Shown here one piece after another: positions 21,918-48,622 of a stretch of DNA of 64,000 bases (positions are counted from its first letter, which is position 1; each line of letters begins with the position of its first letter). Below the pieces are notes generated by a model. It saw only the letters and a program-made list of their open reading frames with translations, had not been told where the DNA came from and made no database searches. The DNA is from Tridacna crocea (lineage: Eukaryota > Mollusca > Bivalvia > Cardiida > Cardiidae). The translations under genes were made by a program, and so were the position numbers. The stretch lies in assembly GCA_943736015.1 (NCBI GenBank), contig OX031063.1, positions 38,456,672 to 38,520,671 on the forward strand, read 5' to 3'.

Positions 21918-22145
21918 TTAACCCTTTCCCAAACAAGCCCTGAGTTTTATGTGTGTGCTCTAAAAGTCTTTTGAAAACACTGGGGGAAAAGGAGAAATTG
22001 CTCGTAACGAGCAATTTCTCCTTTTCCCCCAGTGTTTTCTACCCTCTTTGAGAACTTTCTGCCATTTTCTCTAAATCTAAAATTGTCGTCTGCAAACTCT
22101 TTTGGTTTGGAAGAGTCCAAAATTTGTCGTTTGGGAAAGGGTTAA
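21918..22145 (+). mobile_element. Family A subfamily S2, complete, perfect hairpin
   Basis: Hairpin 21973-22039 is a perfect 33-bp inverted repeat with arms CACTGGGGGAAAAGGAG and apex GCTCGTAACGAGC. Ends are TTAACCCTTTCCCAAACAAG and GTCGTTTGGGAAAGGGTTAA. Confidence 0.92.
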
Positions 22146-22217
22146 ATTCCTTTTTGCAAGAGCATGCTCCGTATGTATGAGCTATTCTGATAGCTACCAT
22201 TTTGAAAATTGTCCTAG

Positions 22218-22283
22218 TTTCCCGAGATCTGTGAGATTAGCTGAGGCACTCTGTCACATACAGTCAGATGGCATGCCTTGGAA
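22218..22283 (+). CDS. Candidate plus-strand exon
   Basis: These 66 nt follow TTGTCCTAG and end GGAA|GTAAGA. The only frame open throughout starts with one base of a split codon and reads FPRSVRLAEALC then HIQSDGMPW. The acceptor has a weak pyrimidine tract. I do not recognise the product. Confidence 0.28.
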
Positions 22284-22375
22284 GTAAGAAGAAGAACTGA
22301 AATTACACTGGTTGCTGAATATATCCTCTTGGTCAAATAGCTGAATATGCTACATTTAATTCATTCTAAGTTCTG

Positions 22376-22412
22376 GAAGCAGAGCTCAGTAGCACAGTCA
22401 GAAGTGAACAGG
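22376..22412 (+). mobile_element. SINE head fragment (A-box part)
   Basis: AGAGCTCAGTAGCACAGT resembles the start of the SINE at 63434; the B-box part appears at 22575 after element D. Confidence 0.35.
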
Positions 22413-22574
22413 GTCTGTATTCACCAACCATTCTTAAAAACATTCTTTGTCTTATTCTTCGAGATATCCTGACTGTGAAAGTAACAGAACTTCGGATTGG
22501 CTAAAACCAAAGGGTTTAGCCAATCAGAGGTTCTGTTACTTTCGCATTGACAAAATTTTGAAGTATAAGACTAA
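22413..22574 (+). mobile_element. Element D hairpin MITE, right end missing
   Basis: Begins ATTCACCAACCATTCTTAA and contains a long hairpin (AAAGTAACAGAAC / GTTCTGTTACTTT around GATTGGCTAAA). A complete relative is at 54485. Confidence 0.65.
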
Positions 22575-22632
22575 GAGTTTCAAATCCCCAGCTCAGCCAT
22601 TTCTTTCTGAGAATTGACAAAGTTCAGTGGGA
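22575..22632 (+). mobile_element. SINE fragment (B-box part)
   Basis: TCAAATCCCCAGCTCAGCCA parallels the segment at 23755 in another SINE copy. Confidence 0.35.
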
Positions 22633-22637
22633 CAGGA

Positions 22638-22848
22638 TTAATTTCTCTCTAACCACTGATTGGAGTATGGGAGACCTTTCCAAGTTGAAAGTTTTTGCGG
22701 ACAACAAGAAAAAAGTTGTTGAAGATGAAGAATTTGCTCTCCCACAAAACTGTAAGGGAGAGCAAATCCATCCATCTTCAACAATTTTTTTCTTGTTGTC
22801 TGCGAAATACTTCAACTTTGAAAGGTCTATGATTTTGTAATGAAATTC
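22638..22848. mobile_element. Family A derivative with two R ends (fold-back)
   Basis: Both sides carry the R-type block (AAGTTGAAAGTTTTTGCGG on the left, the inverse CGCAGACAACAAG series on the right). The arms meet at GCTCTCCC around a 13-bp apex. The usual GTGGGAAAAGGAG core is absent. Confidence 0.7.
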
Positions 22849-23054
22849 TGAAAAAATGACCACATCTTCGAAACTGAACTAGGGTGCCCCTACAGTGAAG
22901 GATTGATAAGAATAAGGATTATCTCAAATCTGTTTGATAAGCTTCAGGAATTCTATGGTTTTGTACACTAGAATAACGTGCAGTATTGAATTTTCTGAAT
23001 AGCTGAATGGAAGCTGAAGCCTGACTGATGCGTGATTGTATTGATGATCTTACA

Positions 23055-23243
23055 GAGCTCCAGATAGAGGGAGTGATTTTGAATTCAAAATTGAAAATAT
23101 TAATTAGTCTCCACTAAAGCCTGTGTTGTGGGCACTCATTAGAATTGTCTCACCGATTGAATCTTATGAGTACCCACAACATAGTGTTTTGAAGACAAAT
23201 AATGGATTTAGAATATACCATCACTCCCTCTTACCTAGAGCTC
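23055..23243. mobile_element. Family E MITE, full length
   Basis: GAGCTCCAGATAGAGGGAGT at the left and CACTCCCTCTTACCTAGAGC at the right. Confidence 0.85.
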
Positions 23244-23301
23244 TTATTCTTAGATGTAAATTTCTCCTTACTGGCATTTTACAAATTGAAAGAAGTGGAA
23301 G

Positions 23302-23490
23302 TTAACTTTTTACCAGAGGATGAAAATTTAGACTTGTCCATTTTTAAAGCTTTTTCAGACGACGAATAAAAATTGGCTCAAATGATAGGGTTGGTTCCTG
23401 TAAGAGTAGAAAACATTTGTGGAAAAGGTGAAAATGTTTTGGAAAGACTTCATCCACAAGTTTATTAAAACTGGGGACCGTGTGTGTTAA
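23302..23490 (-). mobile_element. Family A MITE, hairpin reduced
   Basis: R side intact; one arm mostly lost (GAAAATGTTTTGGAAAG). Ends in the first TTAA of TTAATTAA. Confidence 0.65.
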
Positions 23491-23719
23491 TTAACCCATT
23501 ATCACACAATCCATATTTTTGACGCCCCTGAGAAAGAAGCCTTTAGAAAACATTGTGGAAAAAGGGGAAAATGCTGGTAACCAGCATTTTCTCCTTTTCC
23601 CACAATGTTTTCTACCCTTCACAAAACAAATTTCAAATTTTCAGTCACTTTTATTTTGTCGTCTGCAAATGCTTTCAATTCGGACAAATCTGTAATATTA
23701 TCGTTTGGTAAAGAGTTAA
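23491..23719 (+). mobile_element. Family A MITE, complete
   Basis: Starts at the second TTAA of the junction; near-consensus with clear L and R sides. Confidence 0.88.
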
Positions 23720-23735
23720 GGTTTAAAAAATTATC

Positions 23736-23992
23736 TGATAGCAGGAACTCGCTGGTCCAAATCCCCAGCTCGGCCAATGTCTTTGTGGGGTTTGATGACA
23801 GCCATTGGGAAAGGATTCATTCTTCTGTCATTGCTCCTCATGGGTTACTGTATAGGAAAGCAGCCATTGGTTTGGGTTGAACATTGTACAAAGTACTGGC
23901 AAGAGGAAATCCAAAAGAGCTTGGATATGTGCACTGGCTGCTGCAGTATTTCTGAAATAAGTTTGAAAAGATCAAGTAAACACCAAAACAAA
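23736..23992 (+). mobile_element. tRNA-type SINE, 5' truncated
   Basis: Keeps a B box (GGTCCAAATCC) and the body TGCACTGGCTGCTGCAGTAT seen in the 63434 SINE. The A box is missing. Confidence 0.5.
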
Positions 23993-24397
23993 CAAAAAAA
24001 TGATCAACAATATTGTACAGTAGATCTACATGTATACAGTGGCACGAAATCCCAAAATCTATCTGAATTCTACCCAAATTTACCAGACTCTTCCCCCCCA
24101 AATATGGGAGGAAGGGGTGGGGCTGGGGGGAATGAAATTCCCAGATCTTCCCAAATCTACTGAGATCTTTCCTAAATCTCCCAATTCCATTCCAAAATGT
24201 ACAAAAGTATATACATTTCAAACTACTATCTGATTAAAAGGTATACATTTATTTTTTCTTCTTACATTTACAAGTTTTAGCATCATTGTGATGCATATAA
24301 GTCGAGATTATTCGCATATTTCCTGTATCACATTAAATAAAGCAGGAGTATAATCAACATGCATAGGACATTATTATGTCTGACTTTACTCACTTAC
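23993..24397. other. Low-complexity and unique sequence
   Basis: A C-run/G-run pair near 24090-24130 can fold. Overlapping ORFs on both strands here look spurious. Confidence 0.45.
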
Positions 24398-24460
24398 CCA
24401 GGCACTCAACACTCCAGAAAATTCTTTGAAGTAATTCTGTTGTAGGCCCTGCAGCTCCGT
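24398..24460 (-). CDS. Candidate internal exon of an unidentified minus-strand gene
   Basis: This 63-nt segment has textbook splice sites: acceptor TTTCTTTTTACAG and donor TGG|GTAAGTGAG. It is free of repeats. The phase-0 frame reads TELQGLQQNY then FKEFSGVLSAW; a second open frame reads GAAGPTTELLQ then RIFWSVECL. The first has the helical L..L..Y..F...L..W spacing of a spectrin-like helix, which is only a weak hint. Its length is a multiple of three, so it could be alternatively spliced. Confidence 0.45.
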
Positions 24461-24568
24461 CTGTAAAAAGAAAACCAAATATTTAGGAATTTTCATGCTG
24501 CCCCATGTATACAACTTTGGTGCATTTTTCCTGGTCTATATCATTTTCATATGATTTAATTGTGTCTC

Positions 24569-24755
24569 TTAACCCACTACCACTCAATCCCTACTTTTGA
24601 TGCCCCTGAGAAAGAAACCTTTTGAAAAAGGTGGAAAACATTGTGGGAAAAGGAGAAAATGCTGGTTACCAGCATTTTCTCCTTTTCCCTGAATGTTTTC
24701 TAAAGGCATCTATCTAAGGGTCGTCAATACTAGGGATTGTTTGGTAATGGGTTAA
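24569..24755. mobile_element. Family A derivative with two L ends (fold-back)
   Basis: The left end reads ATCCCTACTTTTGATGCCCC, and the right end, read inverted, is ATCCCTAGTATTGACGACCC. So both sides are L type around the hairpin. Confidence 0.8.
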
Positions 24756-24837
24756 AACATCATCATTTTTAAAAAGCAGTTGTTTTTTTTTTCCCACCAG
24801 TACTTTACATGTGTCCAATACAGGATGTCCAATTATT

Positions 24838-25030
24838 GCTGCGTAAAAATATGTAGATATTTCCAAATGGAATGCTGTTGCAGATGACAAATAAATTGTG
24901 GTTCAAATGGTTGGATTTGCCTATGAATGGATAAAAAACATTGTAGGAAATGGAGAAAATGCTGGATACCAGTATCCTCTCCTTTCTCACAATGTTCTCT
25001 AAAGCTTTCTTCCGACAGGATGGTTATTAA
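24838..25030 (-). mobile_element. Family A MITE, diverged
   Basis: Shares the TTAA at 25027-25030 with the next copy. Confidence 0.6.
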
Positions 25031-25260
25031 CCCATTACCACACAATCCCTACTTTTGACGCCCCAGAGAAAGAAGCCCTTAGAAAACATGGTGTGAAAAG
25101 GAGAAAATGCTGGTAACCAGCATTTTCTCCTTTTCTCACAATGTTTTCTACCCTTCACAAAACAAATTTAAATTGTCAGTCACTTTTATTTCGTCGTCTG
25201 CAAATGCTTTCAATTTGGACAAGCCTAATATAATATTATTGTTGTTTGGTAATGGGTTAA
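25027..25260 (+). mobile_element. Family A MITE, complete
   Basis: Consensus-like; R end has a small TATAATATTAT expansion. Confidence 0.88.
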
Positions 25261-25692
25261 AAGTGTGCTGTGTGTGATCAAGAATGAAGCTATGACAAAC
25301 ATGCATTGATTTTTTTTTTGCTACTTGTATCATTCTAGATAAACAGCAGCTGCTGTGTGAATGTGTCTGCATAAATCATTAATACAGAACTAAAACTGTT
25401 TCGTTTTCATCATCAATGAGGGGTGCTACATTGTTGTAGATTTGACACAGATATCATTTTTTTCGTTTGTGCGTTTGTGTTAAATGTTCTGTGCTGTAAA
25501 TATGTGATATACGAGCATGTATCTAGTAAGTTCTGTCAGCTTGCCATATACTGATTCATTCCTGCTCTATGTTTGACATTTAGGAAGGATGAATATCAAG
25601 ATACTTTTATGAATATAATTATAACCATGTCAGACAATTTGAAATAAATGACCTTGAAAAAAAAATTGTAAAATAGGGATAAACAAAATGAA
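25261..25692. other. Unique AT-rich sequence, no gene seen
   Basis: No repeat family recognised. Confidence 0.45.
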
Positions 25693-25896
25693 CTAACTGT
25701 TTATCAAACAATCTTGAGTTTTAACAAACTGTAAAAAGAGACCTAATCAAAAACATTGTGGGACAAAGAGAAAATGCTAGTGACCAGGATTTTCTTCTTT
25801 TCCCAAAATGTATTCTAACCTATTGAAGACAAACTCCATACTCTGCACCCGATTTGAATTGTTGGTTACAAATGCATTCAATTTGGTTTTAAATAG
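25693..25896 (+). mobile_element. Family A MITE, R end missing
   Basis: L end TTTATCAAACAATC and hairpin present. Confidence 0.65.
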
Positions 25897-25992
25897 ATCT
25901 ATACATGTTAGCAAAAATAGTTATATATCTTGGCAAAAAAAAAAATTATTATACAGAAAATTGCTGTATTACTGTGCATCAATTTTTTTCAA

Positions 25993-26217
25993 TGAACTCT
26001 TTACAAAACCACAAAATTTTGGACTTGTCTATATCACAGGCATTTCCAGATGACAAATGAAATATGGGTCATATGGTAAAAATGGTCTGTGAAAGGTTTG
26101 ATAAATTTAGGGAAGAAGAAAATACTCGTTATGCGAATTTTCTTCTTCTTCTCAAATATTTTAAAGTCTCCTTCCACAGAATTTGGTAAAAGCTAGGGTT
26201 GTGTGGTATATGGTTAA
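25993..26217 (-). mobile_element. Family A MITE, diverged
   Basis: Hairpin reads GAAAATACTCGTTATGCG; ends TGTGGTATATGGTTAA. Confidence 0.65.
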
Positions 26218-26364
26218 TACATTTTTTTTTGTTACATGTAGATCCACATATACATGTATTTATATGTCAAAGCCAGGTTGATGCAGAGGAACTTTTTATA
26301 TGGCACCAGTCCTGTCAAGTTCATCAATTATTAGTCTACAGGAAAACAGGAGTGGACTGGATTG

Positions 26365-26573
26365 ACCCTTAGGCTGCTTAATGCGACTAACGGACCTTTT
26401 GAGGATAGTGTAGATCAAGATCAGACTGCACTGAATTCTGTGCTGTCTGATCTTGGATCTACACTATCTGATAAGGTGATATTTTCCCTCCTAAACAACT
26501 TTGAAATGGCAATATTTGGGTTTATACTATAAGCTGGAAAATTTCATTTCACTTATTTAGGAGGATAAAGGTT
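26365..26573 (+). mobile_element. Family B hairpin element, full length
   Basis: From CCCTTAGGCTGCTTAATG through the GATCAGACTGCACTG hairpin to AGGAGGATAAAGGTTAA. Confidence 0.8.
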
Positions 26574-26871
26574 AATTTGTGGTTATATTTTGGATACTCT
26601 TGAAAAACTTTGGTCATAGCTGGTTGTTGATAAAAACCACGTAGATCTAGATAGCTAATACAGACATGAATTAAGATAAGGCAACACATGCAGATATATT
26701 TATAGAAATAAACATCTTGATAAGAACCAGTAACACAGAATTTACATAGTTTCATGGTTGAAAATTGAACTGGAACAGTTAAAAAAGATGGATTCTATAC
26801 ATGAGAGGTATGTATTGTTTCTTGATAGAATATAGACCTTTGCTTCACATTTCAGTTATCTTTTAAATCCT

Positions 26872-27100
26872 TTAACCCTTTCCCAAACGACAAACTTTTG
26901 GACTTGACCAAATTGAAAGCATTTGCAGATGACAATTCAACTCTTGCTGAAAAGATGATTTCTGTCTATGATTGGGTAGAAAACATTGTGGGAAAAGGAG
27001 AAAATGCTGGTTACCAGCATTTTCTCCTTTTCCCACAATGTTTTTAAAAGGCTACTATTCCAGACCCGTAAAAACCAGGGATTGTTTGGGAAAGGGTTAA
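26872..27100 (-). mobile_element. Family A MITE, complete, perfect hairpin
   Basis: Same CCCGTAAAAACC subtype as 1186. Confidence 0.9.
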
Positions 27101-27240
27101 AAAACAATCCCAAAAATTAACTTGTTATCCTATGGCAAACTGTGGACTTGTCTTATTTGAGAGCATGAGCAGACGTACCTTTGATCCAAAGGGGAGCTTT
27201 GATTTTATTGTTTGATTTTTTCTACACTAAATACACTAAA

Positions 27241-27272
27241 TAGCATAGGAGCAAGCCTTCAGACAGAAGGTA
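27241..27272 (+). mobile_element. Element C, terminal fragment
   Basis: ATAGCATAGGAGCAAGCC then TTCAGACAGAAGGTA match the right arm of the copy at 6875. Confidence 0.5.
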
Positions 27273-27360
27273 GTGCAGATGTTGGTATTTATCTCTGAAG
27301 GGACAGGAAATACTGTTTACCTGTATCGTTGCCTTTTCCATCAGTATTTTCGAATACATG

Positions 27361-27584
27361 TACTTCCCAGATGACAAAATTTTAGCTTTGTTCAAATTGA
27401 GAGCAGTTGCAGACAAAAATTTCAATGTGACTCAAATGGTGCAAATTTTCTTTGATAGGGAAGAAAACATTGTGGGATAAGGAGAAAATGCTGGTTGCCT
27501 GCATTTTCTCCTTTTCCCATATTGTTTTGAAAAGGCTTCTTTCCCAGGGTCGTTAAAAGTCAGTACTCTGAGTTAAAAGGTTAA
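27361..27584 (-). mobile_element. Family A MITE
   Basis: R block, hairpin (apex GCTGGTTGCCTGC) and L side GGGTCGTTAAAAG present. Confidence 0.75.
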
Positions 27585-27621
27585 GAAGGTCATTAAAACA
27601 CAGGATGATGTGGTGATAGGT

Positions 27622-27832
27622 TAACAACCATGAAAAAGAATATGTTGAAAACATTGTGGGAAAAGGAAAAGAATATTCTGTTATACAGCATTTTCTCTAT
27701 TTTCCATAATGCTTTCTACTCTAGTTGAGAGACTTGTAAATTCTATCATTTTAGCTACATTTTCTTTTATGACATCAGCCTTATGCTGTCAACTTGGACC
27801 AGTCTAAAATTTTGTCTTTTGGTAAAAGAGTT
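27622..27832 (+). mobile_element. Family A MITE, diverged
   Basis: Hairpin eroded; R side TGGACCAGTCTAAAATTTTG clear. Confidence 0.65.
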
Positions 27833-27871
27833 ATTCATTATCAAACAAATGCCTAGGTCTGTTGACAGCTT

Positions 27872-28076
27872 TTAACCCTTTACCCCATAAGGCATTTCTA
27901 TGGTATCTCTAATTGACCCTTTTTTATGTGTATATGAGACCTTTTGATAGCATAGAAAACATTGTGACAAAAGGTGAAATTGCTCATCACGAGCAATTTC
28001 ACCTTTTGCCAGAATGTTTTCCAAAGGCTCCTACAAGCAATGCATAGAAATGAGTATCTATGGAGTAAAGGGTTAA
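27872..28076 (+). mobile_element. Family A-prime MITE, complete
   Basis: Same flanks as 2807, with apex GCTCATCACGAGC. Confidence 0.85.
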
Positions 28077-28449
28077 AAAAATTGAGAGAAAAGAGGCAAT
28101 TTCTTGTTACAAGGAGTTCTTGCATTTCGTCTCAACATGTTTCAGTGATATTTATAACTCTTTGGAAAAAACAATTTCCTCACGTTCAAATATTTCTCTA
28201 TAATTTTATCATTTGAAATACAGTCTGTAGCAATTGAAATATTTCTCCTCCAGTGTTACACTATTCAATGGTTATCAATAAATAATCTGTAGCGCATTAG
28301 GCTAACAAGTGCATATTCATGAATATGCTAGATATAGATCTACCTTTGCCGAACTTCCTAGTTTTTTTGCTATCGTGACAATTTCTATTCATAGCTTTCC
28401 ATCTTGTATATATTTGCTTTGTATGATAATGTGCTCTGTATATCAACAG

Positions 28450-28483
28450 GTTGGTTCTGATCTATTGAACAGATTGCAAGAGG
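28450..28483 (+). CDS. Candidate plus-strand micro-exon (weak)
   Basis: This 34-nt segment lies between TGCTCTGTATATCAACAG and GAGG|GTAAAC and reads VGSDLLNRLQE in phase 0. Its phase does not fit directly after the 22218 candidate, so it would need an intervening exon or a different gene. Confidence 0.18.
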
Positions 28484-28529
28484 GTAAACAATTAAAGGCC
28501 TGTACAAGAAAAGCTCTTAGTATTTACAT

Positions 28530-28647
28530 CCCTTCAAAAGAAAAACTCTTGAAAACATTGTGCGAAAAGGAGAAAATGCTGATAATCAGCATTTTTTTCT
28601 TTTCCACAATGTTTTTTACTCTATCAAAAATTAATCCAATCCTTTAA
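28530..28647 (+). mobile_element. Family A MITE, partial
   Basis: Hairpin with apex GCTGATAATCAGC; ends truncated. Confidence 0.65.
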
Positions 28648-28851
28648 CTCTTTACCACACAATCCCAACTTTAAACGCCCCTGAGAATGAGACCTTTTGA
28701 AAACATTGTAACCAGCATTTTCTCCTTTTCTCACAATGTTTTTTACCCTTCAAAAATCAAAATTCAGTTCTTGATTCACATTTATTTTGTTGTCTGCAAA
28801 TGCTTTCAATTTGGACTAGTCCAAGGTTTTGCCATTTGGTAAAGAGTTTAA
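28644..28851 (+). mobile_element. Family A MITE lacking the left arm
   Basis: GAAAACATTGTA joins ACCAGCATTTTCTCC directly. Confidence 0.8.
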
Positions 28852-29333: not shown

Positions 29334-29529
29334 TTAACCCATTACCACACAATCCCTACTTTTGACGCCCATGAGAAAACACTATGGTAACCAGCATTTT
29401 CTCCTTTTCCCACAGTGTTTTCTACCCTTCCAAGAACAAAGTTCTGTTTTTTAGTCATCTTTTTTTTGTCGTCTGCAAATGCTTTCAATTTGGACAAGTC
29501 TAAAATTTTGTCGTGTGGTAAAGAGTTAA
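29334..29529 (+). mobile_element. Family A MITE lacking the left arm
   Basis: AAAACACTATGG joins TAACCAGC; the right arm is intact. Confidence 0.82.
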
Positions 29530-29623
29530 ATCATGATTACCAGCAGATTGGTCAGAAAGGAATTTGTTTAGGAAAATTTAACTGTCTAACAACCAGTTCC
29601 AAGTTTTATCAATCCTAACAGAG

Positions 29624-29855: not shown

Positions 29856-30060
29856 TTAACAATTTACCAAACAACAAAATTTTAGCCTTGTCCAAAATAA
29901 AACCATTTGCACATGACAATTTTTCTTTGATAGGGTAGAAAACGCTGTGGGAAAAGGAGGAAATGCTGGTTTCCAGCATTTCCTTATTTTCCCAAAATGC
30001 ATTCCAAAGGCTTCTTTCCCAGGGTCATTAAAAGTCTCAATTGTGCGGTAAAGGATTGAA
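29856..30060 (-). mobile_element. Family A MITE
   Basis: Arms share AGGAAATGCTGG/CCAGCATTTCCT, a paired variation from consensus AGAAAATG. Confidence 0.78.
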
Positions 30061-31223: not shown

Positions 31224-31420
31224 TAGCTCACCTGAGCACGAAGTGCTCAGAGTGAGCTATTGTGATCACTCACCGTCCGTCGGCGTCCGTCGTCCGTCCG
31301 TCCGTCGTCCGTCCGTTCACATTTTCTTGTTTACACTCTAGCATTTTGGGTCTTATCGGACCAGAACATCTGGAGTTATTTGCCCTTGAATTAGAAAAAT
31401 TGCTGTATTTCACTTTGTTT

Positions 31421-31870
31421 ACACTCTAGCATCTACAAATATCAACCAATCAGCACCAAACTTGGTCAGAGTATATATGATTATAAGATCTCGGATGAGT
31501 TCGATTTTGGGTGTAATCGGACCAGAACATCTGGAGTTATTTGCCCTTGAATTAGAAAAATTGCTGTATTTCACTTTGTTTACACTCTAGCATCTACAAA
31601 TATCTACCAATCAGCACCAAACTTGATCAAAATATATATGACCATTAGATCTCGGATGAGTTCGATCATGGGTCTAATCTGACCAGAACGACTGGAGTTA
31701 TTTGCCCTTGAATTAGAAAAATTGCTATACTGCACTTTGTTTACTCTCTAGCATCTACAATTTTTAACCAATCAGCTGTAAACTTGGCCAAAATATATAT
31801 AACCATAAGATCTTGGATGAGTTTAATTATGGGTGTAATTGGATGAAAACAACTGGAGTTATTTACCCTT
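31421..31870 (-). repeat. Tandem array, about 3 units of 161 bp
   Basis: ACTCTAGCATCTACAA recurs at about 31422, 31583 and 31743. Units contain GGAGTTATTTGCCCTTGAAT. Confidence 0.9.
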
Positions 31871-32600
31871 GAATTAGAAAGTTCTTTATAATAGTTCTTA
31901 ATCCAGAGCATAACTTTGTCATCTCCAGTCTGATTGACTTGAAACTTGACATTTGTATTTGTTGCAATAATGCAGAGTGCAATGTGAAAGATCCATAACT
32001 CTACCTTATACTGTCTGTAAGTTATTTCCCTTTGATTGTCATTTTTACAGCATTTTCTGCTCGTCTGGACTATAACTGTCATCTATAGCCTGAACATCTT
32101 CAAATTTGATGTGCATGATCGTTGTTTATTTATGGAGTGCAGTGCACAAGAACCATAACTCTTCCTAGCTTGAAGTTTGAGTTATTTCCCCTTTGAACTT
32201 CATTTTCATAGCATTTCTTGCTTGTCCGGAGCAAAACTTTGTCATCTTAAGTAGGAATGACTTGAAATTGGGTATGATTATTTGGTGCAATATTTGGAAG
32301 TGCAGTGCACAAGAATTATAACTCCAATTCCTGCTGTCGAGTTATTTCACTTTTAATGTCATTTTTACAGCATTTAGTGCCTGTCTGGAATATAACTTTG
32401 TCATCTCAAGTCAGAACGACTTCAAACTTGGTATGCATGTTTGTTGCAGTATTACAGAGTACAATGCGCAAGAACAATAACTCTACCGAGTGCGAACTTT
32501 ATGTAATTCCACATTGATCTTCATTCTTATAGTATTTCTTGCTTGTCTGGAATGGAACTTCAAAGGCTCAAGTCAAATTGCGACAGATCGCTGCTCTTGT
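31871..32600 (-). repeat. Tandem array, about 4-5 diverged units near 165 bp
   Basis: TAACTTTGTCATCT-type and GTGCACAAGAA-type phrases recur. Divergence is higher than in the 161-bp array. Confidence 0.75.
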
Positions 32601-33118: not shown

Positions 33119-33205
33119 TGGATCCTTTTCCCACAATGTTCAATGTTTTCTAGAGGCTTCTTTCTCAGGGGCGTCAAAAGTAGGAATTGTGTGGTAATGG
33201 GTTAA
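33119..33205 (-). mobile_element. Family A MITE, L half
   Basis: Starts in the right arm and ends GGTAATGGGTTAA. Confidence 0.75.
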
Positions 33206-34228: not shown

Positions 34229-34456
34229 GAAAACCCTTTCCCAAACAAGCCCTTCTTTTTATGTGTCTGCAGTACAAGTCTTTTGAAAACACTGAAGGAA
34301 AAGAAGAAATTACTCGTAACGAGCAATTTCCCCTTTTCCCACAATGTTTTCTACCCATTTGGAGAACTTTCTGCCATTATCATCAAATTTGAAACTGTTG
34401 TCTGTAAACTCTTTGAGTATGAAGGAGTCTAAATTTGTCGTTTGGGAAAGGGTTAA
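34229..34456 (+). mobile_element. Family A subfamily S2
   Basis: Apex ACTCGTAACGAGC; both S2 flanks are present. Confidence 0.85.
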
Positions 34457-35506: not shown

Positions 35507-35517
35507 ATGGAGACATT

Positions 35518-36268: not shown

Positions 36269-36497
36269 TTAACTCATTACCAAACGGCAATATTTTAGAC
36301 TGGTCCAAATTGAAAGCATTTGCAGACGATAAGATAAAAGTGACTGAAAATGTGAAATTTGTTTTGTGAAGGGTAGAAAACATCGTAGGAAAAGAAGAAA
36401 ATGCTGGTAACCAGCATTTTCTCCTTTTCTCACAATGTTTTCTAGAGGCTTCTTTCTCAGAGGCGTCAAAAATAGGGACTGTGTGGTAATGGATTAA
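36269..36497 (-). mobile_element. Family A MITE, complete
   Basis: Near-consensus; shares TTAA at 36494 with the next copy, in opposite orientation. Confidence 0.9.
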
Positions 36498-37924: not shown

Positions 37925-38126
37925 TCTTTGAGCACAGGGGCTCGGCACATGATACTTTGAGTTGATTTGTGCTTACAGACAGCATTTCAATAAAAAATCC
38001 CAATGTCTGTATATAAATGGCTAAATGTAGATATTTATGTACAGGCATTGGAATTGTTTATTGAAATGCTGTCTGTAAGCACAAATCAACTCAAAGTATC
38101 ATGTGCCGAGCCTCATTGTCTTTGAG
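37925..38126. mobile_element. Element M: hAT-like 186-bp fold-back with 8-bp target duplication
   Basis: The element is 37933-38118. Arms of about 55 bp pair (GGCTCGGCACATGATACTTT and its inverse). TCTTTGAG repeats flank it at 37925-37932 and 38119-38126. Confidence 0.82.
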
Positions 38127-38328
38127 GGGCATATTCATCATCAGATGTGTTGCAAATTTGGACACTATTATTTTTTCGTTTGTCAGGGATACAGGTATGT
38201 ATTATTTTGCAGATTCGTATCTGTAAAAACAGCACTTAGCAGAACATTGCTATATGTATTTTCTTTTGCCAGATTCAGCATGCCTTTGTTACGCTTCCAT
38301 AAATCTTAATCTATCTTATGGATTAGAT

Positions 38329-38771
38329 ATAGAGGATATTTGTTTTTTTCGATGTAAGATCGAAATTTATTTCATCGAGTGGACACCATCGGTAATATTT
38401 TCACAAGTGGCGCAGCCACGAGTGAAAATATTACCGATGGTGTTCACGAGATGAAATAAATTTCGATCTTTCACCGAAAAAAACAAATATTCTATTTATT
38501 TTATGCTTTTAACCCTTTCTGGGAGGAGCTTTATCAAAATTCAGTACAATTCTTTTCCCTCATTCCCCGTGGCGTACCCCTCCCGCATAGCAACGTGACG
38601 TCAAGCGCGAGAAATGTAAGGTATATGACGTCATATTTCCCATCTGGTTGTTAGGCACGCGCAATTTACCTAGGCAACAAGAACGTGAAAATCGGTATTT
38701 TCACTGGTGTAAGATCGAAAAATATTTTCACTGCTATTTCTCGATATCCCACCGGAAAGCATGAAATAAAA
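38329..38771 (+). mobile_element. Family H element, complete
   Basis: Best-preserved copy, with the ATATTACCGATGGTGTTCAC hairpin, two TGACGTCA/GTGACGTCA sites and GGCACGCGCAATTTACCTAG. Confidence 0.85.
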
Positions 38772-40263: not shown

Positions 40264-40469
40264 AATTCTTTATCCTGAAGATGACAGAATTTAAGGCTTG
40301 TCCATAGTTCTATGGAAGCATTGATAGGCAAAATTTTAATGGGATTCATCATAAAGAGAAAACATTGTAGAAAAAGAGAAAATGTCACAAACTTATCAGC
40401 ATTTTCTCTTATTGCCCAATTGATTTCAAAAGCTTTTGTCTCAGGTTCCAATAACTCTTGGGTTATTAA
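40264..40469 (-). mobile_element. Family A MITE, diverged
   Basis: Decayed hairpin; shares TTAA at 40466 with the next copy. Confidence 0.6.
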
Positions 40470-40692
40470 CTCCATACAAAACAATCCAAGGTTTTCATGA
40501 AACTCAGACAGAAGCCTTTGAAAACATTGTGGAAAAAAGGAGAAAATGCTGGTTACCAGCATTTTCTCCTTTTCCCACAATGTTTTCCACCTTTCCCAGA
40601 ACAAATTTCATCTGTTGAGTCACATAAATTCTTTGGTCTTCAAATGCTTTCAATTTGAATCAGTCTAAAATTCAGTTGTTAGGTAGAGTTAA
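40466..40692 (+). mobile_element. Family A MITE, complete
   Basis: Perfect arms except for one extra A. Confidence 0.82.
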
Positions 40693-41715: not shown

Positions 41716-41770
41716 TATCTCTTTACCACACAGTCCCAACTTCTAAAGATGCCCATCTACAGCTGATAAG
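41716..41770 (+). mobile_element. Family A MITE, L-end fragment
   Basis: CTCTTTACCACACAGTCCCA then unrelated sequence. Confidence 0.5.
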
Positions 41771-42364
41771 CAAAAACGCTGTTAAATTTCAAACAATTTA
41801 GAATGTTACAGAAATCAGTCCTTTGTGTAAACATGGAAAAATTTCTGACATATGAGCATATATGGTGTAATTAAAAAAAAAAAGAAACATGAAGATTTGT
41901 ATTAGAAACCGATCATTGGTCAGAAGAAAACTGGCTGATGATCTAAGCTGTAGAAAAGGCGGTGCGTCACAGAAATTTATCGTTGGTGTCTGCCTAGAGT
42001 CAAATACCGTGCAATTCGCATCATAGGCCCCGAACTCCGTCTGAAAATCGAGGCTGCAACAGAAAAGCCTCTATTTTCCTTTGTTTACCTTATTAGACGC
42101 AGAGCAAAGGTCAAGTATAGTCACATGACAAAATGCATGATCTTTAAACGAATCTACCCGAGTGTACAACAGACATATGAAAATCTTCAAACAGGAAACA
42201 AGGAGTCTGTTTACAATGAAGGCCACAACTCAGTGAAATGCATTTTTTATCGACCGTAATCTAAGCAACCTTGCGAATGTCAGGCGCAATATTTGGCATG
42301 AAGATATAAGAATGACAACAGTTTGATAAAATAAAGACAAAATGAGTTGAAATTGGCTGAAAAT
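41771..42364. other. Unique sequence with raised CpG, no gene seen
   Basis: A minus-strand AAG|GTAAAC donor near 42091 could end a non-coding first exon of the candidate minus-strand gene; no coding frame supports it. Confidence 0.3.
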
Positions 42365-42596
42365 GAGTATTGGGGCCCCTTTGGCAACTCTGAGAAAATA
42401 AGCTTTTGAAAATATTGTGGGAAAAGGAGAAAATGCTTGTAACCAGCATTTTCCACTTTTCGCACAATGTTTTCCCACAATGTTTTCTACCCTTCCATAA
42501 TTGAATTTCAATTTTTTATTCACATTTATTTTGTTGTCTGCATAACGCTTTCAATTTGGACTAGTCCAAAGTTTTGTTTGTTTGGTAAAGAGTTAA
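42365..42596 (+). mobile_element. Family A MITE
   Basis: The right-arm end CCCACAATGTTTTC is duplicated in tandem. Confidence 0.78.
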
Positions 42597-42779
42597 GTCT
42601 TTACAAGACAGCCAAATTTATGACTTGTTCAAGTTAAAAAATTTGGAGACAACAGATTTGATGTGTATGGCTCACATGGTCCGATTTAGAAAAAAATTGT
42701 GGGCAAAAGAGAAAATGCTGGTCACCAGCATTTCCTCCCTCTTCTCCATTTTTTTCAAAAGCTGTCTCGGGGGCCTTAA
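42593..42779 (-). mobile_element. Family A MITE, L end shortened
   Basis: Joined by TTAA to copies on both sides. Confidence 0.65.
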
Positions 42780-42990
42780 TTTTTCACCAAATGACAAAAT
42801 TTTAGACTTGTCAAGGTTGAAAGCATTTGGAGATGGCCACAAAACTGACATTTGTTTATAGAGGGGTAGAAAACATTGTTGGAAAAGGAAACAAATGCTG
42901 GTAACCAGCATTTTTCTTTTTTCCACAATGTTATCCAAAGCTTACTTTCTCAGGGTCCTCAAAACTTCTGATTGTTTGGTAAGGGGTTAA
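42776..42990 (-). mobile_element. Family A MITE
   Basis: R block AGACTTGTCAAGGTTGAAAG; ends TAAGGGGTTAA. Confidence 0.78.
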
Positions 42991-43237
42991 ATAATTTATT
43001 ACCAAACATTTATTCAGACATAAAGTGACTCAATCCTTACATCATAAATACAACACAATTCATCTGTTATCTTCGTGATGAAATGAGGTGTGCAAACACA
43101 AAGCAAAAAGAGTTTCTCACAAATAAATTTTGACAAAGAAGACAGGTATTTTAAAAGAAAGATAGATAGGGTAAGAGATACGTGAGTGGAATGGGAATTT
43201 TGAAGCTCTCTGCCGTTCAATATGTAGAAGAAATAAT

Positions 43238-43290
43238 GAAAAGGAGCCTTACCAGCAATTGCTCCTTATCCCTCATTGTTTTGGCTATTA
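43238..43290 (-). mobile_element. Family A hairpin fragment
   Basis: AAAAGGAGCC and GCAATTGCTCCTTATCCC. Confidence 0.4.
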
Positions 43291-43328
43291 TTGAAAAGTG
43301 AAATTTCTATTAGACTCAAAGCTATACT

Positions 43329-43559
43329 TTAAATCATTACCAAATGACAACATTTTGGGCTTGTCCAAATAGAAAGCGTTTGCAGACGACAAAATGAATG
43401 TGACGGAAAATTTGATTTTCTTTTTTTGTGAACGGTAGAAAATATTGTGGGAAAAGGAGAAAATGCTAGTAACCAGCATTTTCTCCTTTTCAAACAATGT
43501 TTTCGAAAGGCTTCTTTCTCAGGATCGTCAAAAGTAGGGATTGTGTGGTAATGGGTTAA
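43329..43559 (-). mobile_element. Family A MITE, complete
   Basis: Apex GCTAGTAACCAGC; consensus L end. Confidence 0.87.
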
Positions 43560-43742
43560 TGCATTTACAAATGAAGTTGATCCATGTTAGCCTGCATGAA
43601 CTATAGAGGCTGACCTCAGTAAAAACTTTATGCTGCAAGTTAATTTTTTGCATGTCCAAGGCCCATGCTGCCTCATGATCCAGTGGCTTGTTTTGTGTGA
43701 TGACTTGCTTGGTAGAATGTATCTTCTACATCGCTAAGATGC
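43560..43742 (-). mobile_element. Family G element, long form
   Basis: CATGTCCAAGGCCCATGCTG and GACTTGCTTGGTAGAATG, as at 35283. Confidence 0.55.
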
Positions 43743-43744
43743 AT

Positions 43745-43960
43745 TAACACTTTACCAATCTCAGTGTTGGATGAGCCTAATGAAAGAGGCTTTTGAAAAC
43801 ATTGTTGGAAAAGGAGAAAATGCCAGAGTTGCCTGCATTTTCTTTGCGTTTCACAATTTTTTTTAACCAATTAGTGACAAATTTCATCATTTGGGCCACT
43901 TCAATACATCATCTGAAAATGCTTTCAATTTGGACCAGTCTAAAAAGTAAAGAGTTTTGA
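43745..43960 (+). mobile_element. Family A MITE, diverged
   Basis: Hairpin apex GCCAGAGTTGCCTGC; R side TTGGACCAGTCTAAAAAG. Confidence 0.65.
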
Positions 43961-44186
43961 AACTCTTTACCAAACGACAAAATTGTAGACTGGCCAAAAT
44001 TGAAAGCATTTGCAGACGACAAAACAAATGTGGCTGAAAAAATTAAACTTTGTGTTGGAAGGGTTGAAAACGTTGTGGGGAAAGGAGAAAATGCTGGTTA
44101 CCAGCATTTTCTTCTTTTCCAATAATGTTTTCAAAAAGCTTCTTTCTCAGGGTAGTCAAAAGTCGGGATTATTTGGTGATGTGTTA
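43957..44186 (-). mobile_element. Family A MITE, complete
   Basis: Perfect apex region; arms differ at a few bases. Confidence 0.85.
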
Positions 44187-44269
44187 AACCACCTTTTGCC
44201 ATGGCATAGCTCATATACATGTATTTTCAAAATTAGATTACTGCTGTAAAAGTGGCGAGTCTGAAAATA

Positions 44270-44549
44270 TACTAGAATGAAAAAGAAACGCAGGGTACCT
44301 TGCGCGATATTGAACAAGCTGTGAGTCTCCATTACGCAGTCAGTCAATACTTTTTTTCACTGAAGAGTTGGTACTGTCATTAAGAAACCATTTTCTCATT
44401 TCCTTTTGGCCACACTGAAATGAAATTTCGTCGAAATAGTCAAAAGTGATCAGTGGTAAACATAAAATCATAATTTAAAATTCTCAATCAAGTTATACAC
44501 CTCGGAACTACCTTGAAAGGTTACCCTGCATTTCTTTTTCGTCCTAGTA
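44270..44549. mobile_element. Element N: TA-flanked TIR element
   Basis: Imperfect TIRs CTAGAATGAAAAAGAAACGC and the inverse of CTAGGACGAAAAAGAAATGC, each bordered by TATA. Size and TA flank fit a Tc1/mariner-type MITE. Confidence 0.65.
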
Positions 44550-44579
44550 TATATGTAGGCTGTACAGCAGTGTGTTTAA

Positions 44580-44750
44580 GAAATAATCTTCTTTCTATCG
44601 TGGTATATTGTTCAATAAACCACAGATGTGAGTTATGCGGTGCAATAAATAATCCACAAGGGCAAAAGCCCCAGTGGGTTATTCATTGTGCCTCATAACT
44701 CACAACGTGGCATATTGAACGATAAAAAATTATAGAAAGAAGATTATTTC
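44580..44750. mobile_element. Element O: long fold-back
   Basis: Arms of about 75 bp pair (GAAATAATCTTCTTTCTAT with its inverse) around CAAGGGCAAAAGCCCC. Confidence 0.75.
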
Positions 44751-44996
44751 GAACCTAACATGGCCAATTCTTAGTGAAATGAAAACAAGTTCAAACTTAG
44801 AGTAAAAACGCTGATAAAGATTATGTTTCATTGAATAACTCACACTTTGAATGACATCACTCGAAATAGGATGACGTCACTCTACATGGACTGTCGCAGA
44901 TTTTACCACATTTTCCTTGCACTGTGTTTATAAAGCCAAAGTTGCATATCGTGTTAGAATATAGGGTAACCCATATGAAATACTGACTCATCAACA
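44751..44996. other. Unique sequence, no gene seen
   Basis: Short ATGACATCAC/ATGACGTCAC pair at about 44850-44880. Confidence 0.4.
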
Positions 44997-45188
44997 GAGC
45001 TCCAGAATAATTAGAGGGAGTGATGCTATTCTAAAGTCATTGTTTCTCTTTGAAACCCTATGTTGTGGGTACTCATTAAAATTGTTTCGATGAGACAATT
45101 CTGATGAGTACCTACAACATAGGGTTTAGTGGACAATAATTAACATTTTCAATTTTGAAATCAAAATTGCTCCCTCTGTCTGGAGCTC
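44997..45188. mobile_element. Family E MITE, full length
   Basis: Central ATTGTTTC...GAGACAAT; ends GAGCTCCAGA and its inverse. Confidence 0.85.
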
Positions 45189-45401
45189 TGCACAAATAAG
45201 TTCAAAGAAAAGAATCATGTCCTGTCATATTGATTGAAATGTGGATGCCACTAATTGCACAATCAAATATCTTTTATTTGTTGCAAGACTTGTATATTGG
45301 CGTCACAAATGGGTCCAAAAATAAGCCTGATGGGGCCCACTTTATTTCAAATCACAACTTACTTTATAAGCATTGAAGAATATCAAACTAAGACGTACCA
45401 T

Positions 45402-45602
45402 AGTGGTGTCCATGGTTTCGAGGTAGAGCATCCGCTTCAAAACCCGGGAGCAGGTGTCAACTTTGGGATTTTTCATAGGCCCACATGTTTGGTGCGAGTA
45501 CTGGTGAAGTTATCAGGAAGCTGAATCGAGAGACATTAACATAAGTTGTAAGAACTTAAAATAATTGTTCCTCAATTGATGTAAAATAAAAATGTTTAAA
45601 CT
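45402..45602 (+). mobile_element. tRNA-type SINE with promoter deletion
   Basis: Starts TGGTGTCCATGG and lacks the spacer to the B box relative to 51592. Body and 3' ATGTTTAAAC are kept. Confidence 0.7.
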
Positions 45603-45700
45603 AGAAGTACTGTAGGTCAAAAGCTATCTTCAAAAGTGTTTCATTACATGGCAGAACCTGTCCTAGATGACCACCTGTATTGAAAATCATAGATTCTTCC

Positions 45701-45969
45701 ATATGGTGTGCAACACGCGAAAAGGGACGTTCGGACATCTGCGTAAAGTGTCGTTTCGGATCAGCCTGCGCAGTCCGCGCAGGCTAATCCGAGACGGCAC
45801 TTTACGACTGCATTAGATTTTGTGCTACAGTAGACATGCGCAAAACAGAAAATTGCATGAAAACGGAAAGTGTCGTCTCGGATTAGCCTGCGCGGACAGC
45901 GCAGGCTAATCCGAGACGACACTTTACGCAGATGTCCGAATGTCCCTTTTCACGTGTTGCAGGCCATAT
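45701..45969. mobile_element. Family F double-hairpin element, best copy
   Basis: About 55-bp TIRs (CGTAAAGTGTCG...CGACACTTTACG, ATATGG...CCATAT) and two strong hairpins built on GGATCAGCCTGCGCAG/GGATTAGCCTGCGCGG. Confidence 0.88.
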
Positions 45970-46022
45970 TGTAAGCATTTGCATGTGACAAAATTAGTAT
46001 AGTTGCATTGGATGATTTTGTC

Positions 46023-46163
46023 TTAGCCCATTACCATACAAGGCCTACTTTTGATGACGCTGAGAAAGAAGCCTTTAGAAAATATTGTGGGAAAAGAAGA
46101 AAATGCTGGTAACCAGCTTTTCCCCCAAGGTCATTAAAACTTGGGATGGTGTGGAGCAGTAAT
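46023..46163. mobile_element. Family A derivative with two L ends, shortened
   Basis: Left CCCATTACCATACAAGG, and right inverted CACACCATCCCAAGTTTTAA, both L type. Confidence 0.6.
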
Positions 46164-46218
46164 ATACCCCCTTTTTCAGAGCATGACTTAGTTGATCAAT
46201 GGTCCTGTAATCTAGGTA
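46136..46218 (+). repeat. Inverted repeat, left copy (partner 47748-47826)
   Basis: About 80 bp from ACTTGGGATGGTGTGGAGCA to GGTCCTGTAATCTA recurs inverted 1.5 kb away. Confidence 0.75.
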
Positions 46219-46226
46219 CTGTGGTT

Positions 46227-46355
46227 CTCCTTTCCCCACCATGTATTCTACCCTTCACAAAACAAATTTCAAATTTTCAGTGACTTTTATTTTTTCGTCT
46301 GCAAATGCTTTCAATTTAGACCAGTCTAAAATTTTGTCATTTGATAAAGAGTTAA
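46227..46355 (+). mobile_element. Family A MITE, R half
   Basis: Starts in the right arm at CTCCTTTCCCCACC and ends AAAGAGTTAA. Confidence 0.75.
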
Positions 46356-46544
46356 AGGATGGAAAACAAAAAGAGCTACAGATACTAAAATACTGTATAG
46401 TAAGTATATGACAAACTTTTATACCAAACAAACAATAAGGGTTTTCATCTACATCAAAAGTTCCATATTTTTGAAATGGAATGATTTAAAGGTAAACACA
46501 TTTTAAGACCTTTCTTGTTTTCTTTTGGTCACCATTGAGCCTTT

Positions 46545-46758
46545 CAACTCTTTACCATACATCAAATTTATAGACTGGTCCAAATTGAATGCAGACGACA
46601 AAATAAGTGTGACTGAAAAAAATGTAACTGAAGGGTAGAAAACACTGTGGGAAAAGGAGAAAATGCTGGTTACTAGCATTTTCTCCTTTTCCCACAATGT
46701 TTTCAAAAGGCCTCTACCTCAGGGTCGTCAAAAGTCCTCATTGTGTGGTAATGGGTTC
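46545..46758 (-). mobile_element. Family A MITE, near complete
   Basis: Left arm has ACACTGTG while right has CACAATGT, an unpaired difference; ends are slightly eroded. Confidence 0.8.
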
Positions 46759-47118
46759 ATTAAGAAAAAAATGAAGCAAAAGAGAAACTGTTTCTGTTTG
46801 CAATTGTTAATATCTCAGTTTGTCACAACATTATTGTTTCTATTCATGGATGAAATCTCAAATTACAATGATACTGTGTTTTGTAATGTTTCAAAGGATT
46901 ACGAGAAAATTTGTTTTAGGAAGTAAAAGATATAAGATTTGATGAGATATTGACAGTTGACCACCATATGTTGACACATCAGGTGTTATGGCAGTGTGAC
47001 AGAGTGCTTTCACCCTGGGGTTAAAATTTACGCCCAATATCCATTAATAGCTTTTACTATAAATAATTGACTTTTTTACTCATTTGTACTCATTATGGAC
47101 TGGTTGTATATTTATAAG
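46759..47118. other. Unique AT-rich sequence, no gene seen
   Basis: No repeat recognised. Confidence 0.45.
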
Positions 47119-47325
47119 TAAACTCTTTACCTTATGAAATTAAGTTTAGTACTGCACATCTTGGCAAACACAGTACATATTTCATAGGAAAAAAATGTTT
47201 TGATACACAAATTAGTTTGAATAAATTCTGGCTGAATATTTGGAAAACAATGTGGTTAAAGGAGAAAATGCTATTTGTGACCAATATCTCTTTTTACCAC
47301 AATGTTTTCAATACCTGTTTTATTT
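47119..47325. mobile_element. Family A MITE, degenerate
   Basis: AAAACAATGTGGTTAAAGGAG and TACCACAATGTTTTC are recognisable. Confidence 0.45.
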
Positions 47326-47488
47326 GTGGTTGAGATCATTTGGTTGTAATTTATCAGAGAAATCAATTACGTTATATCTGTAAAGGTTTGTCGGAAATAG
47401 GATATTGAGGTGTTAAGACGATCACGATATGATAATGGGCTTGGTCATCATTAACTTTCTCATTTCAGTTTTGTACCTAGATTTATAC

Positions 47489-47748
47489 CATCCTCGGATA
47501 CCCCCGGGTCTCCCTATTTGCTACGCTACATCGACCCCTGGGACAATTAATTGAATTTCCCTCACTTTACCACTGGCCCAATGCTGGCATTTCATTGGTT
47601 CCATCATCATTTTGTGATGGGCGAGTGGACTGTACGCTATGACGTTTCGTATCGATTTTCGGCGGCTGATTCAAAGTTTTATTAGTCAATTGTCCCAGGG
47701 TCAATGTAGCATATAGCAAATAGGGAGACCCCGGGGTATCCGAGGATG
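47489..47748. mobile_element. Element I: 260-bp MITE with about 60-bp TIRs
   Basis: CATCCTCGGATACCCC, GTCTCCCTATTTGCTA and CCCTGGGACAATT occur in order at the left and inverted at the right. Confidence 0.85.
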
Positions 47749-47826
47749 TAGATTACAGGACCATTGATCAACTAAGTCATGCTCTGAAAAGGGCGGTATA
47801 ACTGCTCCACACCATCCCAAGTTTTA
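47748..47826 (-). repeat. Inverted repeat, right copy (partner 46136-46218)
   Basis: TAGATTACAGGACCATTGAT through TGCTCCACACCATCCCAAG. It begins exactly at the edge of element I. Confidence 0.75.
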
Positions 47827-48051
47827 ACCCATTACCACACAATCCCTACTTTTGATGCCCCTGAGAAAAAAGCCTATAGAAAACATTGTGGAAAAGGAGA
47901 AAATGCTGGTTACCAGCATTTTCTCCTTTTCCCACAATGTTTTCTACCTTTTACAGAACACATTTCAAATTTTCAGTCACTTTTATTTTGTCGTCTGCAA
48001 ATACTTTCAATTTGGATAAATGTAAAATTTTGTTGTTTGGTAATGAGTTAA
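47824..48051 (+). mobile_element. Family A MITE, complete
   Basis: Near-consensus; TTAA shared with the next copy. Confidence 0.88.
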
Positions 48052-48244
48052 TGACCTTGGGGAAAAAGCCCTTGGAAGACCTTGTGGGAAAAGAAGGATA
48101 TGCTGGTTACCAGCATTTTTCTTTTTACTACGTTTTCTACACTTTCCAATACGATTATCACTATTTCAAATAAAATTTATAGGTTGTTTGCAAATGCTTT
48201 TAATCTGAACCAGTCTAAAACTTTGTCTTCTGATAAAGAGTTGA
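48048..48244 (+). mobile_element. Family A MITE, L end shortened
   Basis: Begins directly at TGACCTTGGGG; R side TCTGAACCAGTCTAAAAC. Confidence 0.65.
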
Positions 48245-48394
48245 TGCATAGATCTACACAAAGAATCAACCTAGGTCAGCCTGATGTCAGTCTTTGCGGG
48301 CTAACATAGGTCAAAATGTTTTATTTTCGTTCAGTTTTCTGCATTGTCAAAGGGCCATTCCACACCATGATTAAGTCTGCTTTCAGACATGGGT
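48245..48394 (-). mobile_element. Family G element
   Basis: CAACCTAGGTCAGCCTGATG hairpin and CAAAGGGCCATTCCACACC. Confidence 0.5.
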
Positions 48395-48622
48395 TTAACC
48401 CTTTCCCAAACAAGCCCTGGTTTTTACGTGTCTGCAGTAAAAGTGCTTTGAAAACACTGTGGGAAAAAGAGAAATTGCTTGTAACAAGCAATTTCTCTTT
48501 TTCCCACAGTGTTTTCTACTCTTTTTGAGAACTTTCTGCCAATTTCCCAAAATCTAAAATTGTCATCTGCAGACTCTTTCGGTTTGGAAGAGTCCAAAAT
48601 TGGTCGTTTGGGAAAGGGTTAA
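48395..48622 (+). mobile_element. Family A subfamily S2, complete, perfect hairpin
   Basis: Hairpin 48450-48516 is a perfect 33-bp inverted repeat with arms CACTGTGGGAAAAAGAG and apex GCTTGTAACAAGC. It differs from the 21918 copy at three arm positions, all paired. Confidence 0.92.

Follow-up and report, generated by a model that had tools for sequence, protein, structure and literature searches.

Paired change in the arms of a central palindrome in a TTAA-flanked MITE family of the bivalve Tridacna crocea

Introduction

TTAA is the target of the piggyBac and piggyBat transposons. The CMITEs of Acropora corals share this target, and most of their families have CCCTTT-type ends; CMITE families with different ends have in common a 75-bp internal region that is more conserved than the terminal inverted repeats and that the authors suspected of a role in transposition (PMC2872659). 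We describe a family of TTAA-flanked miniature inverted-repeat transposable elements (MITEs) with a palindrome of 67 bp at their centre, found in a stretch of 64,000 nt of the genome of the bivalve Tridacna crocea (assembly GCA_943736015.1, contig OX031063.1, positions 38,456,672 to 38,520,671, forward strand), hereafter the window. The arms of this palindromic core covary, with the paired changes falling mainly in the source lineages of the family; in copies that have settled, the match is mostly lost through changes in single arms. The family resembles the CMITEs in its TTAA target and in having ends that vary around a better-conserved internal region, but differs in length (227 bp here versus about 100 bp there), and the likeness is one of description and not of compared sequences. 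Neither "palindrom" nor "hairpin" occurs in the main text of the CMITE paper (PMC2872659).

Template switching between the arms of inverted repeats is reported to homogenise the arms and invert the spacers, spacer inversion at perfect inverted repeats being a reported product of intermolecular template switching (PMC8604942), and RNA hairpins have been argued to arise and persist through template switching (PMC8794818). A preliminary description of this stretch had noticed the arms changing together; its remark that no named system was known for this was wrong at the level of mechanism. The present palindrome may be likened to the products of template switching, or quasipalindrome correction, by which arms become alike, the spacer flips and compensatory changes can arise in one event (PMC8604942, PMC8794818); such correction has, however, been described at fixed loci, whereas in the present family it is little in evidence at resident loci and the changes track the source lineages of a mobile element. 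The coding palindromes of nematomorph mitochondria have perfect arms in concerted evolution between species and between individuals, for which template switching was proposed, but these sit in mitochondrial genes and the present palindrome in a dispersed element (PMC6649704). Palindromic sites also characterise piggyBac and piggyBat, where they are bound by dimers of the cysteine-rich domain (CRD) of the transposase; they are short and lie near the ends, and a central 67-bp palindrome goes unmentioned in the parts of that paper considered here (PMC11707139).

None of the literature matches listed, judged on titles and the starts of abstracts and with subscription literature mostly outside the scope, describes paired core evolution in the source lineages of MITEs. 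Small dispersed hairpin elements that are kept by source lineages are known as REPINs, which have imperfect hairpins and another type of transposase. REPINs are bacterial (PMC3116915). Arm homogenisation by template switching and a conserved CMITE core are known already, and paired core change in MITE source lineages has no description among the matches listed. The reading that we develop below, to which we give about an even chance, is that the central 67-bp palindrome of this piggyBac-type MITE is a cis element for its own multiplication.

Structure and Subfamilies of the Element

A profile search of the window (nhmmer, overlaps removed) gave 110 matches to one repeat, some of them weak or partial, which cover 30% of its length, and a 32-mer of the arm with up to three mismatches occurs 89 times against a mean of 0.00 in 100 shuffles. 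The genome-scale question is addressed with these 110 matches of one 64-kb window; exact-pattern scans of a collection of viral contigs and a collection of genome contigs found no further copies. The full-length model measures about 227 bp and has, in mid-element, two 33-nt arms with one unpaired base between them. TTAA stands at both ends of 30 of the 46 end-to-end copies and at one end of 13 more (TTAA frequency, 0.0072 per position). Copies of the subfamilies S2 and S3 have CCCTTT ends. In S1 (n = 43 for either end), the left end reads CTCTTT in 11 copies, CTCATT in eight and CCCTTT in seven, the remainder being other, and the right end reads CCCATT in 20 and CCCTTT in eight. The model is too short for a transposase, and open reading frames (ORFs) that cross copies reach up to 183 aa, no family search having been made on them. 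By its sequence the element, which is short and non-coding, is probably a piggyBac-type (TTAA) MITE, presumably mobilised by a piggyBac-type transposase.

S1 and S2 are alignable over their whole length. In S3 (copies 2808 and 27873) the ends are different and the left flank departs from that of the S1a group at more than half of the aligned sites, with the core the same. Relative to S1a, the S2 copy 21919 differs at 8/66 arm, 6/28 end and 49/131 flank positions, and the S3 copy 2808 at 11/66, 7/26 and 77/132, respectively, as a descriptive comparison of arms with ends across subfamilies. Between subfamilies, the core is better conserved than the flanks.

Adjacent copies abut or share a TTAA at 8772-8775, 33203-33205, 36495-36496, 48048-48050 and 61916-61917, as if the element often inserts beside its own end. 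In several copies (3590-3795, 10721-10928, 23303-23484, 28645-28848, 29335-29528 and 49022-49228), much of one arm or the apex is lost, with breakpoints that vary by copy and that lie, by eye, at short direct repeats in some. At least six core columns are lost in 13 of the 78 core-spanning copies; with regard to hairpin-driven deletion, deletions of at least six columns were not significantly denser in the core than in the flanks (11 core, 14 flank, 63 copies, P 0.30). The segment 22672-22841 is an unusual fold-back derivative of the element, an inverted pair of left-flank segments without the core.

Covariation of the Arms

Both arms are readable in 78 of the 110 matches, 67 of which have at most three gaps per arm; the covariation sample consists of 43 gap-free cores, 41 of them distinct. 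Over these 41 cores, a covariation check on the arm columns agreed with the proposal that the arms change together: the score was 0.133 against 0.083 (standard deviation (sd) 0.005) in shuffled data, with none of 500 shuffles as high and slid versions reaching at most 0.058. Cells altered on both sides of a pair number 31 versus 7.9 (sd 2.5) after shuffling (0/500 reach 31), and pairs altered on both sides 12 of 33 versus 6.0 (sd 1.8), a value reached by one shuffle in 500. Further, the arm mismatch is 0.148 within copies and 0.186 between copies (67 copies; no permutation as low), without correction for copy age or subfamily. Since the kinship of copies can inflate shuffle tests of this kind, our argument rests on trees.

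The two S2 cores singled out in the preliminary description were recovered at the same positions (21973-22039 and 48450-48516), each with perfect 33-nt arms and one unpaired base; they differ at three arm sites (10, 18 and 30; sites are numbered from 0, with site 30 at the apex), all mirrored and none unmirrored. Of their flank columns 17/131 are different, and the end columns are identical (0/28). The apex change from TCGTAACGA to TTGTAACAA falls on a CpG in each arm, so that ordinary CpG decay could account for it. The two other quoted cases also lie where stated: the copies with cores at 8654 and 63026 show a mirrored T/C difference, together with one unmirrored change in the copy at 63026, and the copy with its core at 29938-30004 has the mirrored G but is decayed, with 8/33 arm pairs mismatched. 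The pattern is not universal, in that only seven of the 78 copies with both arms readable have no mismatched letter, six of these being gap-free.

Arm covariation would also be expected if the hairpin were selected as an RNA, for example as a small-RNA precursor, and the fold of two whole elements, modelled as single-stranded DNA, is strong (z −12.6 and −11.0). Against this, one-arm transitions show no significant wobble strand bias (90 versus 72, P 0.18), no Rfam family matches at the gathering threshold, the apex loop is almost nil and the resident copies decay. Small-RNA selection is accordingly unsupported here, and we regard an RNA role as highly improbable.

Mirrored Changes on a Tree of the Flanks

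We placed the arm changes on a tree built from the flanks of 46 near full-length copies (score > 130), with the hairpin excluded and the two S3 copies added for the parsimony counts. The tree splits off S2, the S1c clade (support 0.94; 93/86 in a second analysis) and the S1a group. Among the six S1c copies, all five that keep both sites have C7 in both arms, and the neighbouring S1a group has T7 in both arms, save one copy with C in one arm. By parsimony, internal branches carry seven mirrored versus 11 one-arm changes and the tips eight versus 141 (Fisher P 2e-4). Four of the seven fall on the root branch leading to S3 (support 0.51); the S2 branch (0.999) accounts for two and the S1c branch (0.94) for the other one. 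Sites 25 and 30 enter this count twice, once for S3 and once for S2, and merging them changes the comparison to 5:11 versus 8:141 (P 0.004). The 11 internal one-arm changes include four that cancel in pairs (L11, R8), two that are the halves of the S2 site-7 change and five on branches with support below 0.7. Three of the eight mirrored tip sites come from the two perfect S2 copies, whose tips carry no one-arm change; recounting the S2 tip changes as source gives 10:11 versus 5:141 (P 2e-7), a regrouping made post hoc on data already seen.

The preliminary description had offered a choice between rewriting of one arm from the other and selected pairing. Paired evolution of the arms is borne out, mainly in source lineages, and ongoing rewriting only in part. 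In resident copies the paired states largely trace to masters, with few mirrored changes since insertion (the 8 versus 141 of the tips), a pattern which that description had set against its own proposal.

The same counts bear on a history without any mechanism, in which a few perfect founders followed one another and the mirrored differences are chance survivors among very many copies. A hand count gives only about nine founder changes, including one at a CpG, and with very many copies exact matched pairs will arise somewhere by chance. Such a history nevertheless needs a reason for the founders being matched; without a filter, unmirrored founder changes should heavily predominate, and we consider it extremely improbable.

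Source Lineages and Resident Copies

Between the subfamily consensuses there are no unmirrored arm differences, leaving aside the S2 column R10, where three S2 copies have three different letters; the consensus there is tied and the zero counts were entered on that reading. At the flank rate, the unmirrored differences expected would be 5.5 for S1a-S1c, 7.0 for S1a-S1b, 23.2 for S1a-S2 and 8.6 for the S2 copies 21919-48396, counts that include flank CpG sites and use S1a in three of the four contrasts. In the six youngest tips, by contrast, 12 one-arm changes are seen versus 11.1 expected at the flank rate. On long tips the ratio of one-arm to flank change drops to about 0.3, perhaps because part of their length was passed in clean source lineages; the drop is possibly exaggerated by flank CpG sites and by undercounting in parsimony. 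From the youngest copies, which change at the flank rate, and from the ratios of tips to internal branches, copies seem to decay freely once inserted, with pairing kept or restored in the lineages that multiply.

An apparently strong mirrored excess among S1 residents (30 versus 16.9 expected, P 0.002, 62 of the 67 copies) shrank when old copies resembling S2 or S3 and site 7 were left out. Corrected for copy age and site frequency, the residents have 19 mirrored changes versus 12.7 expected (P 0.04, 58 of the 67 copies), and those with at most eight derived sites five versus 2.7 (P 0.12). The mirrored excess in S1 residents is thus weak, and given this and the decay of the residents, any continuous rewriting at fixed loci plays a minor part at most.

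These results limit a reading in which template switching at the palindrome during ordinary replication, unconnected with transposition, maintains the likeness of the arms in all copies. The reported mechanism has both of the marks sought, arm homogenisation and spacer inversion (PMC8604942), and the weak resident excess and the changes of the centre base (below) are in its favour. Yet residents lose the match arm by arm, mutation in the youngest tips is as fast as in the flanks, and switching alone should not keep source arms perfect, since between jumps every source copy is a resident too. We judge this reading very unlikely.

Constraint on the Core and the Centre Base

Were one arm simply copied from the other, the pairs would still change at the neutral rate. 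Changed arm pairs between S1a and S2 number 3/33 versus 46/131 flank columns (P 0.003; first counted as four and lowered to three for the tied R10). The S1a-S1b contrast gives P 0.07, and that between 21919 and 48396 3/33 pairs versus 17/131 flank columns (P 0.77). Pooled, these three contrasts, picked by us after the data were seen, give 6/99 pairs versus 77/394 flank columns (P 0.0008), or about a third of the flank rate. A pair rate below the flank rate points to constraint on the core in source lineages, perhaps of the kind that acts on transposon ends. Within S1a, singleton rates are 0.018 for ends, 0.020 for arms and 0.049 for flanks (arms versus flanks P 1e-4); within S1b, they are 0.037, 0.045 and 0.059, respectively, and within S1c 0.018, 0.031 and 0.031.

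The pair rate matters most for the possibility that conversion occurs inside transposition or amplification, with a fold-back or hairpin intermediate recopying an arm so that each new copy is perfect and pairing is not selected. This would fit the absence of unmirrored consensus changes in source lineages (the R10 tie aside) across 8-35% flank divergence, the lack of a strong mirrored excess in residents and the presence of centre changes. It predicts, however, a neutral pair rate, and the pooled rate, driven by S1a-S2, is about a third of that; moreover, we know of no internal fold-back step in the cut-and-paste movement of piggyBac. Conversion of this kind is in our estimate rather unlikely. 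Quite unlikely is a more specific form, in which each productive jump would re-perfect the palindrome by folding back at the centre and copying an arm, making this a cut-and-paste-type MITE with an obligatory hairpin stage; to our knowledge, no such stage is known for TTAA transposons.

Sequence conservation of the core beyond what pairing alone would explain is, in turn, in line with the arms being identical half-sites for a symmetric protein, such as CRD dimers of a piggyBac-type transposase, with hairpin pairing playing no part. By analogy, the binding of palindromes in the ends of piggyBac and piggyBat by CRD dimers (PMC11707139) would favour such a protein site. On the other side, the mirrored sites (7, 10, 13, 18, 20, 25 and 30) span the arm up to the apex, and 67 bp far exceeds the palindromes of 19 bp in piggyBac and about 14 bp in piggyBat (PMC11707139). 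The two S2 copies, with three mirrored arm differences, have the same end columns, so altered end recognition is not a ready explanation for their arms. The spread of mirrored sites over the whole arm and the identical S2 ends favour pairing, and we hold a protein site without pairing to be unlikely.

By parsimony, A/T changes at the centre base number seven, more than in any other of the 145 A/T columns, the maxima elsewhere being two in the arms, five in the ends and six in the flanks. A single origin of the seven centre-A copies is rejected by the approximately unbiased (AU) test (p 0.0001), for a group named after the tree had been seen. There is a hint here that the centre changes reflect the spacer inversion of template switching.

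Copies of Note

The copies and cores that bear most directly on these results are collected in Table 1.

Table 1. Copies and cores of the element singled out in the window
Feature	Coordinates	Strand
S2 copy, complete element, TTAA at both ends	21918..22145	-
S2 core palindrome (33 + 1 + 33), GGGGG form, arms without mismatch	21973..22039	-
S2 copy, complete element, TTAA at both ends	48395..48622	-
S2 core palindrome, GTGGG / A18 / T30 form, arms without mismatch	48450..48516	-
Third S2 copy, decayed; C7 in one arm, T7 in the other	34232..34455	-
S3 copy; other ends; left flank unlike S1a in 58/92 columns; core 2914-2980 with mirrored C13, T20, T25, C30	2807..3032	+
S3 copy; core 27955-28021 with mirrored C13, T20, T25, C30	27872..28076	+
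S1a copy; perfect core 8654-8720, T7 form	8547..8775	+
S1a copy; perfect core 49858-49924	49752..49978	+
S1c copy; core 63026-63092, both arms C7, a single change unmirrored	62919..63147	+
S1c copy; both arms C7, only one arm G10	18335..18561	+
Copy in which C7 and G10 are confined to one arm; may be an intermediate or a chimera	136..333	-
Old copy; core 29938-30004, mirrored G22, 8/33 arm pairs mismatched	29858..30056	+
S1a copy; mirrored A18 that none of 13 further S1a copies shares; candidate post-insertion mirrored change	60099..60323	+
Core with centre A in place of T	36376..36442	+
Six other centre-A cores of the 46-copy tree	in 47825-48050, 58815-58881, 43438-43504, 61970-62036, 40467-40688, 42778-42989	

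Other Features of the Window

The window has about 35% G+C and, by its coding matches, is probably animal DNA. A Pfam scan of ten chosen ORFs out of 245 listed matched the ORF at 2187-2882 on the minus strand to the autophagy protein ATG13 (E 2e-7; solved ATG13 chains, E about 1e-41), and this ATG13-like stretch abuts a truncated copy of the MITE at 2047-2194. The ORF at 54022-54471 contains repeated RKKRSSNQDLRE-type units and an 87-bp tandem duplication, and has a weak sarcoglycan match below the curated cut-off. Tandem arrays at 11478-12583, 12990-15002 and 31343-31880 have units of about 156, 145 and 161 bp, respectively; the 156-bp unit contains AAGGGCAATAACTC, which is common in molluscs and so hints at a host among the bivalves or other molluscs. 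Other long fold-back repeats lie outside the MITE matches: those at 37939-38112, 38322-38504, 20118-20503 and 45701-45969, drawn from 25 of 154 inverted pairs, have arms of 71-124 nt that are 85-93% complementary, and a perfect 39-nt inverted repeat with a 35-nt spacer is found at 6875-6987.

Discussion

If the palindrome is a cis element for multiplication, efficient mobilisation or amplification would require a near-perfect core, which would act either by extrusion as a DNA hairpin or as a symmetric site for binding. Mismatched copies would then leave few descendants, and matched double changes could start new subfamilies. Template switching may supply part of the matched changes by copying one arm from the other and flipping the centre base.

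Several points weigh against this proposal. Four of the seven internal mirrored sites lie on the weak S3 root branch (0.51), with sites 25 and 30 appearing twice, and inner-branch support in the flank tree is poor, with 6/43 starred. Pair-rate contrasts other than S1a-S2 are singly non-significant, and in S1c arms and flanks have the same singleton rate. Four S1a centre changes may be a single event (AU p 0.15), and the seven centre changes barely exceed the flank maximum of six. Mirrored founder changes are isolated sites, unlike the multi-base tracts typical of a template switch, adjacent mirrored sites (A18, A19) occurring in just one old copy, 39896. Founder changes are few, and the evidence comes from one 64-kb window.

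Should a MITE need a matched palindrome at its centre in order to multiply, its ends would not be all that decides its success, and the mobilisation of TTAA elements would involve a hairpin or a symmetric site. The family is also a natural assay: at the density of the window there would be very many copies per genome, with changes in founders separable from those in residents, and it would let template switching and selection on pairing be measured separately. There is a possible bearing, too, on the conserved core of the coral CMITEs, which its authors left unexplained in 2010 (PMC2872659).

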